Shown here: piece by piece, positions 46,320 to 51,012 of the stretch
How positions within the stretch are numbered: the first letter of the stretch is position 1
How the letters are laid out: each line of letters begins with the position of its first letter
Source of the DNA: Halococcus sediminicola
Lineage (GTDB): Archaea; Halobacteriota; Halobacteria; Halobacteriales; Halococcaceae
Direction: 5' to 3'
Assembly: GCF_000755245.1 (NCBI RefSeq)
Contig: NZ_BBMP01000006.1
Location: 62,001-126,000, forward strand
DNA length: 64,000 bases
The notes under the pieces: model-generated
The model's database searches: none
Seen by the model: the letters and a program-made list of their open reading frames with translations, nothing else
Told to the model about the DNA's origin: nothing
Translations under genes and position numbers: made by a program

Positions 46320-46532
46320 ATGAACAGGAGTGGCTTCGTGAAACTCTCGGTGCTCGCGTTCGGGCTGGTTCTGCTGAGCTTCCTGATACTCGGCTTCTCG
46401 CGGCTCGTGATTCCCTACCGCACCGCGCGCGTCCTCGCCGCGCCGACGACCCTGCTTGCGTTCGCGCTGGTCTGCTATCTCCTCGTGCGCGCGGTGCTCT
46501 CGAAACTCCACATCGTCGAAATCGAGGAGTGA
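46320..46532 (+). CDS. Two-helix small membrane protein
   Basis: 70 residues from the ATG at 46320 (MNRSGFVKLSVLAFGLVLLSFLILGF). Two transmembrane helices, at about 7-28 and 37-58, are separated by a short loop with Arg. The C-terminus (KLHIVEIEE) is probably cytoplasmic. No family recognised. It lies 41 bases before hisD and may share its transcript. Confidence 0.55.
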   Translation: MNRSGFVKLSVLAFGLVLLSFLILGFSRLVIPYRTARVLAAPTTLLAFALVCYLLVRAVLSKLHIVEIEE

Positions 46533-46573
46533 GAGACCACAAACCGTTTTCGCGCCGACTCCGAACCACCCGT

Positions 46574-47854
46574 ATGGACGTCAACACCGTTGCGGACCTC
46601 CCGCCCGACAGGCGACACGCGCTGTTCAAGCGCGACGCCGGCATCGACGCCATCGAGACGGACGTCGAGGACATCATCGAGCGCGTGCGCGAGGAGGGCG
46701 ACGCCGCGCTGCGCGCCTACGCCGAGGAGTTCGACGACACTACCGTGGGGACCATCGACGTGACCGATGCCGCAGAGCGCGCCCACGAGGACATCGACGC
46801 AGACCTTCGAGAGGCCATCGAGACCGCCGCCGAAAACATCGAGGCCTTCCACGAGCGCCAACTGCCCGACGACTGGCGCGAGTCGTTCGACGGCCGCGAA
46901 CTCGGGCGGCGCTACCGCCCGACCGAGCGCGTCGGTGCGTACGTCCCCGGTGGTGGCGCGGCCTACCCTTCAAGCGCGCTGATGACGGTCATCCCTGCGA
47001 AAGTCGCTGGCGTCGAGCAGGTGGCAGTCGCCACGCCGCCGGCCGACGACCTCAGCACGGCGACCCTCGCGGCGCTGCACGTCGCCGGCGCGGACGAAAT
47101 TCATCAAGTGGGCGGCGCACAGGCCATCGCCGCGCTCGCCTACGGCACCGAAACCGTCTCCCGCGTGCAGAAGATCGTCGGGCCGGGCAATCGGTGGGTG
47201 ACCGCGGCCAAGGCAGCAGTACGAAACGACTGTGCCATCGACTTTTTAGCTGGCCCGAGCGAGATATGTGTGCTCGCCGACGATTCAGCCAACCCCGAAT
47301 TCGTCGCGGCGGACCTCCTCGCACAGGCCGAACACGACTCGGCGGCGTCGGTCGTCGCCATCACCGACGACGAAACCCTCGCCGACGACGTCGTCGCGGC
47401 CATCGACCGGCAGATCGACGACCGTGAGCGCGCGGACGTCATCCGCGAGGCGCTCGGCAACGACGCCAGCGGCGTCTTCGTGGCGCGCTCGATGCCCGAG
47501 GCAGTCCTCTTCTGTGAGGAATACGCCGCCGAACACCTCTCGATTCAGGCCGAGGATGACGAGGCGCTGCTCGACCGTATCAGTAGTGCGGGAAGCGTCT
47601 TTCTCGGCCCCCACAGCCCTGTGGCGGCGGGCGATTACGCCGCCGGACCGAACCACGTGCTGCCGACCGGCGGCGAGGCGCGCACCACGGGTGGATTATC
47701 GGTCGAGACGTTCCTGCGCTCGACGACCGTCCAGCGGCTCCCGGCGGACGCGCTCGATGCGCTCGGCGAGACGGTGACGACGCTCGCGGAGGCCGAGGGG
47801 CTGGAAGCCCACGCCGAGAGCGTCCGGGTTCGTGAGCGGACCAGTCGGGACTGA
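46574..47854 (+). CDS. hisD: Histidinol dehydrogenase
   Basis: 426 residues from the ATG at 46574. YRPTERVGAYVPGGGAAYPSSALMTVIPAKVAGV (cited in part), HQVGGAQAIAALAYGTETV, VQKIVGPGNRWVTAAK and DFLAGPSEICVLAD are hallmark segments. C-terminal HSPVAAGDYAAGPNHVLPT holds conserved zinc/catalytic residues. It catalyses the last two oxidations of histidine synthesis (histidinol to histidine) with NAD. No other his genes are adjacent. Confidence 0.95.
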   Translation: MDVNTVADLPPDRRHALFKRDAGIDAIETDVEDIIERVREEGDAALRAYAEEFDDTTVGTIDVTDAAERAHEDIDADLREAIETAAENIEAFHERQLPDDWRESFDGRELGRRYRPTERVGAYVPGGGAAYPSSALMTVIPAKVAGVEQVAVATPPADDLSTATLAALHVAGADEIHQVGGAQAIAALAYGTETVSRVQKIVGPGNRWVTAAKAAVRNDCAIDFLAGPSEICVLADDSANPEFVAADLLAQAEHDSAASVVAITDDETLADDVVAAIDRQIDDRERADVIREALGNDASGVFVARSMPEAVLFCEEYAAEHLSIQAEDDEALLDRISSAGSVFLGPHSPVAAGDYAAGPNHVLPTGGEARTTGGLSVETFLRSTTVQRLPADALDALGETVTTLAEAEGLEAHAESVRVRERTSRD

Positions 47855-47948: not shown

Positions 47949-49820
47949 ATGGACGATTCGACCGAGAGACAGGATCGACGCAGCGAGAACGGACGTTCGC
48001 GGCGGGCGTTCATGGGTGATGCGACGCTCGTCGGCGCGGGTGTGGCCGCGCTGTCGGTCGCCGGCGTCGCGGCCGCCAACGACGACAACGGCGATAGTAG
48101 CGGCGAGAACAGCGACGACGTGAGTGACGTCGACGTGTTGAACTACGCGCTCACGCTCGAACACCTCGAAGCGGCCTACTACAACGACTTCCTCGACAAC
48201 TACTCCGAAAGCGAGGTCGAGCGCTCGGAGGTCGCACGGTATTTCGCACGGCCGACACTCCAGTATTCGACCTACCAGCAGATTCAGGACGTACGCGACC
48301 ACGAAGAGGCTCACGTCGAGACGCTCACCGAAACCATCGAGGACCTCGGCGGCACCCCAGTCGAGGCCGCCGAATACGAGTTCCCGTACTCGTCGATTCA
48401 GGAGTTCGTCGCGGTCGCCGACCGCCTCGAAGCCGTCGGCGTCTCCGCTTACGCCGGTGCCGCGCCGCTGATCGATAGCGACGAGGTGCTCGCGGCCGCG
48501 CTCTCGATTCACTCCGTCGAGGCGAATCACCAGACGTATTTCCAACTCCTAAACCTCCAGCGGCCCGCACCGAACGCCTTCAACCCCGCGCGCTCGATGG
48601 ATCAGGTCCTACCGATCGCCAAGCAGTTCATCGTCGGCGAGGACGGCGGTGACGGGAACGGTCTCGTGACCGCGACGAGCGACGCGAGCGTTTCGGCGAC
48701 CGTCGAACGCATCAAGGGAATGATCGAGAAAAAGGGCTTGAAATCCATCGCAACTGTCGACCACGCCGCGAACGCCAATTCGGTGGGGATGGACCTCCGG
48801 CCGACGACGCTGCTGGTCTTCGGCAATCCCTCCATTGGAACGCCGCTGATGCAGGCGAGTCAGTCCACCGGGATCGACCTTCCCCAAAAGATGCTCGTCT
48901 ACGAGGACGAGGGCGGCCAGACGAACGTGGCCTACAACGCTCCCGAGTATCTCGCCGAACGCCACGACATCACGGGGCAGAACGGTCGCTTGGAGAAGAT
49001 CGCTACCGTGCTCGAAGCGCTCGCTGGCGGCGACGTGGAGAGTTCGAAGGCCGACCCGAGCGGTCTGCTCGCCGGCGGCGACGGTGTCGTGACCGTCGCG
49101 GGCGACGAGAGCGTCGATGCCACCGTGACGCGCATCGAGAACGCGCTCGCATCCAAGGACGCCATCTCGCTCGTGACGAGCGTCGATCACGCCGCGAACG
49201 CCGATTCAGTAGGGATGGACCTCCGGCCCACGACGCTGCTGGTCTTCGGGAACCCGAACCTCGGCACGCCGCTGATGCAGGCCAATCAGTCCATCGGCAT
49301 CGACCTTCCCCAAAAGATGCTCGTCTACGAGGACGAGGGTGGGGACGTCGAAGTCGCCTACAACGACCCCCGATTCATCGCCAAGCGCCACGGCATCACC
49401 GGGAAGGACGACGTGCTCTCGAAGATCGAGGGCGCGCTGCGATCGATCGCCACCGGTGACTCCAGCGGCGACGGCTCCAATGGCGAAGGCGAACTCGCGG
49501 TCGCGGGCCTGAGCGCCGACGCCGACGGCACCGACGCCAACAACCTGAACGACGAGTACATCACCTACGAGAACACTGGCGACGGTCCGTTGAACCTCTC
49601 GGGCTGGACGGTCGCGGACGATTCGGACACGACCTACACGTTCCCCGACGGGTTCACGCTCGAACCGGGCGCACGGGTCACGCTCTACACCGGCAGCGGC
49701 ACGGACACCGACACGGAACTGTACTGGGGGCGAGCGAACGAGGTCTGGAACAACGGGGCCGACACGATGACCGTCGAGAACGCCGACGGGGAGATCGCCC
49801 TGCAGCGTTCGTATCCCTGA
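47949..49820 (+). CDS. Tat-exported ferritin-like / double DUF302 / lamin-tail fusion protein
   Basis: 623 residues. A twin-arginine signal (SRRAFMGDATLVGAGVAAL, R18-R19) is followed by a helical ferritin-like domain, about 60-225, with LEHLEAAYYNDFL, DHEEAHVETL and HSVEANHQ as possible metal ligands. Two DUF302 copies follow, at about 235-375 and 380-510, each with SIATVDHAANANSVGMDL-like and LVFGNPxxGTPLMQxxQSxGIDLPQKML segments (cited in part). A lamin-tail domain, about 520-623 (LNDEYITYENTGDGPLNLSGWTV), ends the protein. Probably secreted or cell-surface; the role is unknown, perhaps metal or redox protection. A TTTTACC box lies 25 bases upstream. Confidence 0.7.
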   Translation: MDDSTERQDRRSENGRSRRAFMGDATLVGAGVAALSVAGVAAANDDNGDSSGENSDDVSDVDVLNYALTLEHLEAAYYNDFLDNYSESEVERSEVARYFARPTLQYSTYQQIQDVRDHEEAHVETLTETIEDLGGTPVEAAEYEFPYSSIQEFVAVADRLEAVGVSAYAGAAPLIDSDEVLAAALSIHSVEANHQTYFQLLNLQRPAPNAFNPARSMDQVLPIAKQFIVGEDGGDGNGLVTATSDASVSATVERIKGMIEKKGLKSIATVDHAANANSVGMDLRPTTLLVFGNPSIGTPLMQASQSTGIDLPQKMLVYEDEGGQTNVAYNAPEYLAERHDITGQNGRLEKIATVLEALAGGDVESSKADPSGLLAGGDGVVTVAGDESVDATVTRIENALASKDAISLVTSVDHAANADSVGMDLRPTTLLVFGNPNLGTPLMQANQSIGIDLPQKMLVYEDEGGDVEVAYNDPRFIAKRHGITGKDDVLSKIEGALRSIATGDSSGDGSNGEGELAVAGLSADADGTDANNLNDEYITYENTGDGPLNLSGWTVADDSDTTYTFPDGFTLEPGARVTLYTGSGTDTDTELYWGRANEVWNNGADTMTVENADGEIALQRSYP

Positions 49821-49901: not shown

Positions 49902-50672
49902 ATGGACGACGACCGAGCCGACGACCACGGCGGGTTCGTCTTCGGCGACGAGCGGGCGGCCGACGCCGACGCGACCGACGACCGTGTTCCGCGGAGAGCC
50001 GTCGCCGCTGCCGTGTTCGTCGTCGCCCTTCTCCTGTTCGCTGCCGTCGCCTATCCGTTCGTATTGAGCGCCGTGACCGGACTGTTCGGCGGTGGCTCCG
50101 ACGATGCTGGGGCGGCGAACGGAACGACCGAACCGGGCGACACGTCCGGTGGCGAACTCGCCGGCGAGCAGACCACGACGACCGACGCGCCGGGGGAGCG
50201 AGCGGACACGACGCCCGACGTACGGACGCCGACCGATACGGCGAAAGCGACGGCGACCGCAACCGACGGATCGACACCGACTGCAACGCCCACGCCGACC
50301 CGGACGGACACGACTGAAACGGCCACGGCCGACACGGCCACATCGGCCGCACCGACGGTCGAATCGTTCACCGTCACCGACCGGTCGGCGGGTGGGACGG
50401 CGCGCTTCGACGTCGGCTGGAACGTCACCGACGCCGATAGCGACCTCGTCGCGGTCCGAGTGACGATCGTGGCCGACCCGGACGGTGAGGCGCGCACCGT
50501 CGCCCAACGCCGATTCGACGCCGGTGGGGCACGGACGGCGGGCGGGGGCAGCTTCGAGGTCCCCGAGGGGAGCGGCGCAGCCTACGAAATCGGCATCGAG
50601 GTCGCGGATGGCGGCGACAATACGGCCTTCGAACTCACGCGCGTCGTCGCCGACGGCGAGCCCGATAGCTGA
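49902..50672 (+). CDS. Signal-anchored protein with Thr-rich stalk and beta domain
   Basis: 256 residues. An acidic cytoplasmic N-terminus is followed by a transmembrane helix at about 32-58 (AVAAAVFVVALLLFAAVAYPFV). A Thr/Ala/Asp-rich linker runs from about 70 to 145, typical of heavily glycosylated stalks. A beta-sandwich-like domain fills the rest (ESFTVTDRSAGGTARFDVGWNVTDADSDL, cited in part). Likely extracellular. Located 81 bases after the ferritin-like gene and 67 before nuoJ1. No family name recognised. Confidence 0.6.
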   Translation: MDDDRADDHGGFVFGDERAADADATDDRVPRRAVAAAVFVVALLLFAAVAYPFVLSAVTGLFGGGSDDAGAANGTTEPGDTSGGELAGEQTTTTDAPGERADTTPDVRTPTDTAKATATATDGSTPTATPTPTRTDTTETATADTATSAAPTVESFTVTDRSAGGTARFDVGWNVTDADSDLVAVRVTIVADPDGEARTVAQRRFDAGGARTAGGGSFEVPEGSGAAYEIGIEVADGGDNTAFELTRVVADGEPDS

Positions 50673-50739: not shown

Positions 50740-51012
50740 ATGGCAGCTTTACCGTACGAGACGGTCGCGTTTGCGCTGTTCGCGCTCGTCACCGTTGGGA
50801 GCGCCGCCGGCGTCGTCCTCATGGAGGACGTCTGGCACTCGGCGCTCATGCTCGGGGTGGCGCTTCTGAGCGTCGCCATCCACTACGTGATGATGAGCGC
50901 GGAGTTCCTCGCCGCGATGCAAATCCTCGTCTACGTCGGCGGCGTGCTCATCCTCATCACCTTCGCGGTGATGTTGACCCGCGTCGACGACCCGAAGGAG
51001 GCAGTGTCGTGA
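50740..51012 (+). CDS. nuoJ1: NADH dehydrogenase-like complex subunit J, N-terminal part
   Basis: 90 residues with three hydrophobic helices (ETVAFALFALVTVGSAAGVVL; HSALMLGVALLSVAIHYVMM; FLAAMQILVYVGGVLILITFAVML, cited in part). This matches the first half of NuoJ; haloarchaea split NuoJ into two genes. GAGGTGG at 50729-50735 is a likely ribosome-binding site. It overlaps nuoJ2 by four bases. Part of the proton-pumping membrane arm of complex I-like (Fpo/Nuo) enzyme. Confidence 0.85.
   Translation: MAALPYETVAFALFALVTVGSAAGVVLMEDVWHSALMLGVALLSVAIHYVMMSAEFLAAMQILVYVGGVLILITFAVMLTRVDDPKEAVS

Follow-up and report, generated by a model that had tools for sequence, protein, structure and literature searches.

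A fused ferritin-like, tandem DUF302 and lamin-tail protein of Halococcus sediminicola and its relatives

The Ferritin_2 family (PF13668), which includes RvFeMP-1, DRB0118 and pcC13-62, has been described as a group of Tar-fer-related metabolite phosphatases. RvFeMP-1, RvFeMP-2 and the Deinococcus protein DRB0118 are phosphatases with nucleotides among their substrates, the activity of RvFeMP-1 is sensitive to ethylenediaminetetraacetic acid (EDTA), and plant, tardigrade and Deinococcus members have been tied to desiccation, while the natural substrate of the family is unknown (PMC11616004). Here, we describe a gene for a 623-residue member from the archaeon Halococcus sediminicola, located on a 64,000-nucleotide stretch of contig NZ_BBMP01000006.1 (positions 62,001 to 126,000), which we will call the window. 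Its product has the fold of the RvFeMP-1 family, the M1 ligands for metal and, as in that family, an apparent export signal at the N-terminus; the tardigrade members also carry a beta-sandwich tail resembling immunoglobulin G (IgG-like). Unlike these proteins, the window protein is archaeal, has a signal resembling those of twin-arginine translocation (Tat), carries two DUF302 domains and a lamin-tail domain (LTD) behind its ferritin-like head, and belongs to a set in which some paralogous heads have been homogenised.

Its other parts also have described counterparts. The DUF302 domains share their fold with other PF03625 proteins (7tj1, Brucella Bab1_1389; 1q9u; 1j3m) but, unlike these and the CrcB proteins of NF002454, they are in tandem, fused to a Ferritin_2 head, and without a match to the CrcB transporter part. 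A C-terminal LTD on a presumed outside-acting enzyme is shared with the haloarchaeal nuclease-LTD and metallo-beta-lactamase-LTD hydrolases (Hvo_1477, Hlac_1867) in the available part of PMC5118699; there, the catalytic parts differ from the predicted phosphatase-type, ferritin-like head found here. Homogenisation of copies within a genome is a feature of multigene concerted evolution and of polyploid haloarchaea. According to the accessible part of PMC8223754, gene conversion is very efficient in Haloferax volcanii, acting between chromosome copies rather than paralogues, whereas in our case one domain of otherwise differing proteins is homogenised and a tail has been fused.

The window protein is real and unusual, although made of known domains, and the original points are its fusion history and a concerted evolution that is confined to the head. 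The apparently exported heads of Halococcus carry five kinds of tail, namely DUF302x2, LTD, CHRD, DUF7282 and spondin, each kind being profile-confirmed on one to three members and the remainder assigned from their printed tails or from the domains of the window protein.

The head and its predicted activity

The open reading frame has no internal stop, and its Ferritin_2, DUF302 and LTD matches all lie above the curated Pfam cut-offs (Table 1), which bears out the preliminary description of four domains in one protein. That description had also proposed Tat export. The twin-arginine motif SRRAFM was found by eye at residues 17-22, but the TIGR01409 profile scores 10.5 bits, under its cut-off of 16.7, and the protein is therefore called apparently exported. 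The mature part, taken as residues 44-623, contains no cysteine and has 98 aspartate or glutamate residues against 32 lysine or arginine residues, a composition that suits a halophilic protein.

The nearest solved structure to the head by sequence is tardigrade RvY_06210 (RvFeMP-1), with E 4.4e-14. The model of the head (residues 61-200) has block values of 71-96 in the predicted local distance difference test (pLDDT), and its best match in the PDB is again RvFeMP-1 (Z 22.5, root-mean-square deviation 1.9, 164 residues), so that the ferritin-like assignment holds in structure prediction. Next in the fold search are a mini-bacterioferritin (Z 18.2) and bacterioferritins and ferritins (Z ~17). 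The canonical ferritin profile PF00210 does not match the window protein at E<=1 in Pfam, and it reaches 16.3 bits, below the cut-off of 24.5, in a relative with two heads. By its profile matches, the head is a member of the desiccation-related family PF13668 and not a Pfam Ferritin (PF00210).

The predicted di-metal ligands of the head are E71, E74, E119, H122, E161, E191 and H194, with E74 and H194 placed by position. In the alignment, Glu51, Glu90, His93, Glu132, Asp135 and Asp162 of RvFeMP-1 (numbered as in the paper, with an offset of 3 derived by hand) correspond to E71, E119, H122, E161, G164 and E191. All of the M1 ligands, Glu51, Glu90, His93 and Asp/Glu162, are thus present. Among 40 heads of the genus, E71, H122 and E161 are found in all, E119 in 39 and E191 in 37 (two of the others being gaps).

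Based on these features, our leading but tentative reading is that the protein is a Tat-exported, surface-held, metal-dependent hydrolase, likely a phosphatase, which arose in a family of one head with varied tails by the addition of an LTD and its partner gene. It would act as a phosphatase of the FeMP/DRB0118 kind on extracellular nucleotides or sugar phosphates. The tandem DUF302 would form a two-site module that binds a ligand or a partner, and the LTD may dock the enzyme on a neighbouring membrane-stalk protein or on extracellular nucleic acid attacked by other LTD proteins. Since LTDs occur on nuclease-type hydrolases and the head family dephosphorylates nucleotides, a coherent guess is a surface enzyme that works after nucleases on extracellular nucleic acid. 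Its origin would lie in a family particular to this lineage, where one ferritin-like head is combined with different tails, with some of the heads held alike by conversion. If true, such a head-and-tail system would let one enzyme be directed to several surface targets. The presence of a number of apparently exported copies with different tails in a salt-adapted archaeon offers a route to learn the place and substrate of the enzyme.

Several observations weigh against this reading. The position of the M2 residue D135 of RvFeMP-1 is a glycine (G164) in 40 of 40 heads of the genus. D135 is essential in RvFeMP-1, yet DRB0118 is active with a glycine there (PMC11616004), so this aspartate is not a family-wide requirement. 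RvFeMP-1 fused to green fluorescent protein was not secreted from human cells (PMC11616004). No tested function was found in the literature on DUF302, and the ten neighbours of Bacteroidota tandem DUF302 genes have no common theme: they comprise two response regulators, two S-adenosylmethionine synthetases, an amidase, a GDSL lipase, a VIT1, a DUF4184 protein and two proteins without a family. The LTD fold was also not confirmed by the model, which has block pLDDT of 42-89 over this domain and was made from an alignment with just two relatives carrying an LTD.

Another activity of the head has to be considered, in which it is a redox di-metal enzyme, such as a ferroxidase or a Mn-catalase-like protein, that guards the cell surface from peroxide or iron during drying. 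A carboxylate/histidine di-metal four-helix bundle would suit such chemistry, and the hits behind RvFeMP-1 in the fold search are bacterioferritins, ferritins and Dps-like proteins, at Z of about 17-18. We regard this as unlikely, though deserving of some weight: RvFeMP-1 comes first by a clear margin, PF00210 is not matched, and the three family members tested in PMC11616004 are phosphatases.

The head could alternatively have no specific enzymatic role and be a structural, desiccation-protective module that its tails place in the Halococcus cell wall. The tails include CHRD and spondin, which we take to be extracellular or adhesive families. The ties of the plant and Deinococcus relatives to desiccation (PMC11616004) point the same way. 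On the other hand, the near-invariant metal ligands in the 40 heads favour a chemical role, and we give the structural proposal a slightly smaller chance than the redox one.

Likeness of heads within genomes

The DNA of the heads was compared between Ferritin_2-DUF302x2 genes (F2D) and Ferritin_2-LTD genes. Inside one genome, the two heads are 93.9% (G001), 94.0% (G005) and 93.5% (G006, over 129 codons) identical. Between these three genomes, the F2D heads share 80.8, 85.8 and 79.2% and the LTD heads 79.1, 86.4 and 77.5%. Third codon positions show the same pattern (85-88% within a genome, 60-73% between genomes), and selection on the protein alone is thus no explanation. In the pairs profiled (G001 and G005), identity drops to background at the linker behind the head.

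The trees and tests on heads agree with this pattern. In a DNA tree of 22 heads, the F2D, LTD and CHRD heads of G001 group together (100/99), as do the F2D and LTD heads of G005 (100/100). The approximately unbiased (AU) test rejects a single clade for the three F2D heads (p 1.2e-49), the four LTD heads (p 2.1e-49) and the four CHRD heads (p 1.2e-49), the groups having been named before the DNA tree was made but after an earlier protein tree. In a run test modelled on GENECONV, 13 of the 19 pairs from a single genome had significant runs (p<=0.02), as did 15 of the 212 pairs from different genomes; the latter number is an excess, which leaves the test on its own not clean. Neither the tree nor the run tests include the F2D and LTD heads of G006, which are cut by an assembly gap or a contig end, and the tail comparisons exclude tailless heads (labelled '_o').

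At the level of DNA sequence, these comparisons show for three genomes that some heads stay alike through gene conversion within the genome. For the window genome, significant runs link the head of the fusion to the spondin paralogue (0 of 1000 permutations) and to the DUF7282 paralogue (2 of 1000). The homogenisation there is weaker, with the head 84.7% identical to that of the DUF7282 paralogue and 81.9% to that of the spondin paralogue, and most spondin and DUF7282 heads group by tail in the DNA tree. Both points count against a general process; since these heads follow their tails, conversion is not family-wide.

The heads could also be alike because tails were repeatedly re-attached to recently duplicated heads, by domain shuffling and not by gene conversion. 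The window gene is itself a fusion, and hence tails do move. However, the DUF302x2 genes of G001, G005 and G006 occupy one conserved site and the LTD genes have retained their partner gene, which argues that the genes are old in place. The identity is also patchy, with tracts near 100% amid stretches of 75-90%, and shuffling is therefore considered improbable. We prefer conversion, and with reserve, at a little short of an even chance, we propose a single conversion-uniform exported head whose tails have been kept apart, exchanged or fused, the window gene being a product of exchange. The family shows in readable form how conversion may hold one domain constant while the surrounding proteins diversify and fuse.

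Fusion history, lamin tail and partner gene

The gene order in the window is hisD, a gene for the head, DUF302x2 and LTD, a 256-residue gene, and nuoJ (Table 1); nuoJ, like the nuoI-like gene mentioned below, is what we take the gene to be. In G001, G005 and G006, a Ferritin_2-DUF302x2 gene without an LTD lies directly 5' of nuoJ. These three genomes, as well as G002 and G007, possess a Ferritin_2-LTD gene with a gene for a relative of the 256-residue protein behind it. In G003, G004 and G009, hisD adjoins nuoJ with no fusion gene between them. The unit of Ferritin_2-LTD and partner also occurs on its own in a second genus of the family (four loci, L014, L015, L047 and L157, among the matches listed). 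At the junction, the other DUF302x2 proteins end in '...IASGQ' or '...IAIGQ', while the window protein continues from '...IATG' into the LTD.

Judged from gene order and sequence, the window gene is a fusion in which a DUF302x2 gene, in its normal position 5' of nuoJ, has gained an LTD together with the partner gene. From synteny and outgroups, the LTD and the partner gene would have been added at the end of the DUF302x2 gene in the window lineage, presumably by recombination. The simplest reading is that they were joined onto the DUF302x2 gene and that the fusion was later lost in relatives. Among the matches listed, G003 and G009 share a genus group with the window genome. An assembly artefact that joined two loci is very improbable, even though the fusion is absent from all other genomes searched and assemblies do break in Ferritin_2 heads (G006), since the inserted block has two junctions (DUF302-LTD in frame, and partner gene-nuoJ) and the other three Pfam LTDs of the genome are never on a Ferritin_2 head.

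By sequence, the LTD matches lamin chains in the PDB at E 2.8e-4 and weaker. The window genome contains four Pfam LTDs, and that of the window is the sole one on a Ferritin_2 head; the other three proteins are one metallo-beta-lactamase-LTD and two staphylococcal-nuclease-LTD proteins (L154, L155 and L156). LTDs are also carried by haloarchaeal proteins linked to extracellular DNA, according to the available part of PMC5118699, and in the portion of PMC4486849 at hand a DNA-binding role has been proposed for the LTD on DNases of halophiles.

The 256-residue partner protein has a short N-terminus, a likely transmembrane segment at residues 33-51 and a stalk rich in serine and threonine (31 of 85 residues). 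It has no Pfam or NCBIfam match of its own, but the C-terminal part of a longer relative, in L014, is fn3-like (26 bits against 25). All 10 loci examined have a partner gene behind the Ferritin_2-LTD unit, namely the window, G001, G002, G005, G006, G007, L014, L015, L047 and L157. A lamin-tail tether of the window protein is plausible from these sequences, and the partner protein would be its natural anchor at the surface.

Table 1. Coordinates of the fusion gene, its domains and the adjoining genes (positions in the window)
Feature	Position	Strand	Basis or remark
Four-domain exported protein gene	47949..49820	+	623 aa plus stop; ATG start
N-terminal Tat-like signal region, ~aa 1-43	47949..48077	+	SRRAFM, hydrophobic stretch after it; read by eye
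Ferritin_2 (FeMP/DRB0118-type) domain, aa 59-201	48123..48551	+	PF13668, E 2.1e-39, 135.3 bits vs 24.7 cut-off
DUF302 copy 1, aa 238-368	48660..49052	+	PF03625
DUF302 copy 2, aa 377-505	49077..49463	+	PF03625
Lamin-tail domain, aa 524-622	49518..49814	+	PF00932, E 2.2e-20, 73.5 bits vs 34.3 cut-off
256-aa partner gene (membrane stalk)	49902..50672	+	3' of fusion gene
hisD, upstream gene	46529..47854	+	profile match and synteny
nuoJ-type gene, downstream	50740..51012	+	synteny

The condition of the partner gene differs among the loci of the second genus. It is whole in L014, broken by a stop in L015 and spread over two overlapping frames in L157; in L047, the head and the LTD are in different frames and the partner is visible as a C-terminus only. 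The three broken or partly readable copies are in draft genomes and may reflect sequencing error or decay. Two Ferritin_2 heads of G006 are interrupted in the assembly, one by a stretch of N with repeated sequence (L066, 5888-7607) and the other by a contig end (L071/L072), as expected for near-identical repeats. The nuo genes also differ in order: hisD is upstream of nuoJ in the window, G003, G004 and G009, while G001, G005 and G006 have a nuoI-like gene, DUF302x2 and nuoJ. One clade thus appears to have a divided nuo cluster.

The tandem DUF302 and the distribution of the architecture

The PF03625 profile matches the window protein in two stretches (E 1.1e-45, 153.8 bits against a cut-off of 23). 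Modelled alone, the tandem gives two good domains with a mean pLDDT of 90.3, which match the solved entries 7tj1 (E 1.9e-12, 37% identity), 1q9u and 1j3m; in the full-length model, whose alignment lacked relatives of copy 1, this copy is poor. Both copies contain invariant positions in 12 aligned tandem proteins.

The preliminary description had called the two copies highly alike and suggested a recent duplication. The likeness holds for the core, where 49 of 54 residues are identical, but the overall identity is 64% (81 of 126). Across species, first copies are 72-74% identical to the window's first copy and second copies 68-72% to its second. In the domain tree, the first copies of all four proteins group in one clade (100/99) and the second copies of all four in another (100/93), a separation that places the duplication before these species and rules out a recent one. 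The pair originated in haloarchaea, since each copy is placed with single copies from haloarchaea (95/92); the bacterial tandem proteins are products of separate duplications and not its ancestors. In the other three proteins, the cores match less well (40-45 of 54) than in the window protein, a difference that local conversion might explain; third-position identity between the copies (76% against 65-70%) is not decisive. The DUF302 subgroup of the window looks exported, as the printed N-termini of 22 of 26 haloarchaeal single-DUF302 relatives fetched resemble, by eye, a Tat signal or a lipobox.

Two further roles for the domain were considered and rejected. Trithionate oxidation has been speculated for another DUF302, in the accessible part of PMC5037610, and finds no support in this analysis. 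A part in fluoride export is not favoured either: NF002454 (CrcB) is matched over profile positions 141-254 of 270, its DUF302-like part, at 160.7 against a cut-off of 312, and the CrcB transporter part is unmatched. The entry 7tj1 has been deposited as a putative fluoride transporter CrcB, though the matched chain is a DUF302 domain, and this name may have been carried over from CrcB-DUF302 fusions. Stand-alone tandem DUF302 proteins occur at twelve loci (L016-L020, L022, L025-L027 and L029-L031), several with lipobox-like N-termini by eye. Their sources are presumably Bacteroidota, with one metagenome-assembled genome named Granulosicoccaceae, as judged from the names.

The head and tandem DUF302 occur together in at least 4 of 392 Halobacteriales genomes, all of this genus, and the LTD is added only in the window, in line with the earlier suggestion that these domains are rarely found together; up to six candidates were scored per genome, so misses are possible, and the G006 head is cut by an assembly gap. 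Among 72,556 plasmids, none has at least 80% of the query at one place. No mention of this architecture was found in the open-licence literature on DUF302, PF13668, archaeal lamin tail domains or haloarchaeal desiccation-related ferritin-like domains; one paper on a Halococcus genome, screened for ferritin, DUF302 and lamin, had none either.

More broadly, of 116 genomes sampled from the class, 41 have PF13668, and it is present in 22 of 45 genera. In 20 hand-picked Ferritin_2 genes from outside the Halococcus family, judged by eye and with the window's own domains rather than Pfam, no folded tail was seen after the head; their ends are short or of low complexity, and one has a second Ferritin_2 domain. 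On this sample, tail diversity would be a feature of the Halococcus family. One contig (L023, 3093-6197, shared with L133) carries three consecutive Ferritin_2 open reading frames, the last with a DUF7282-like tail by eye.
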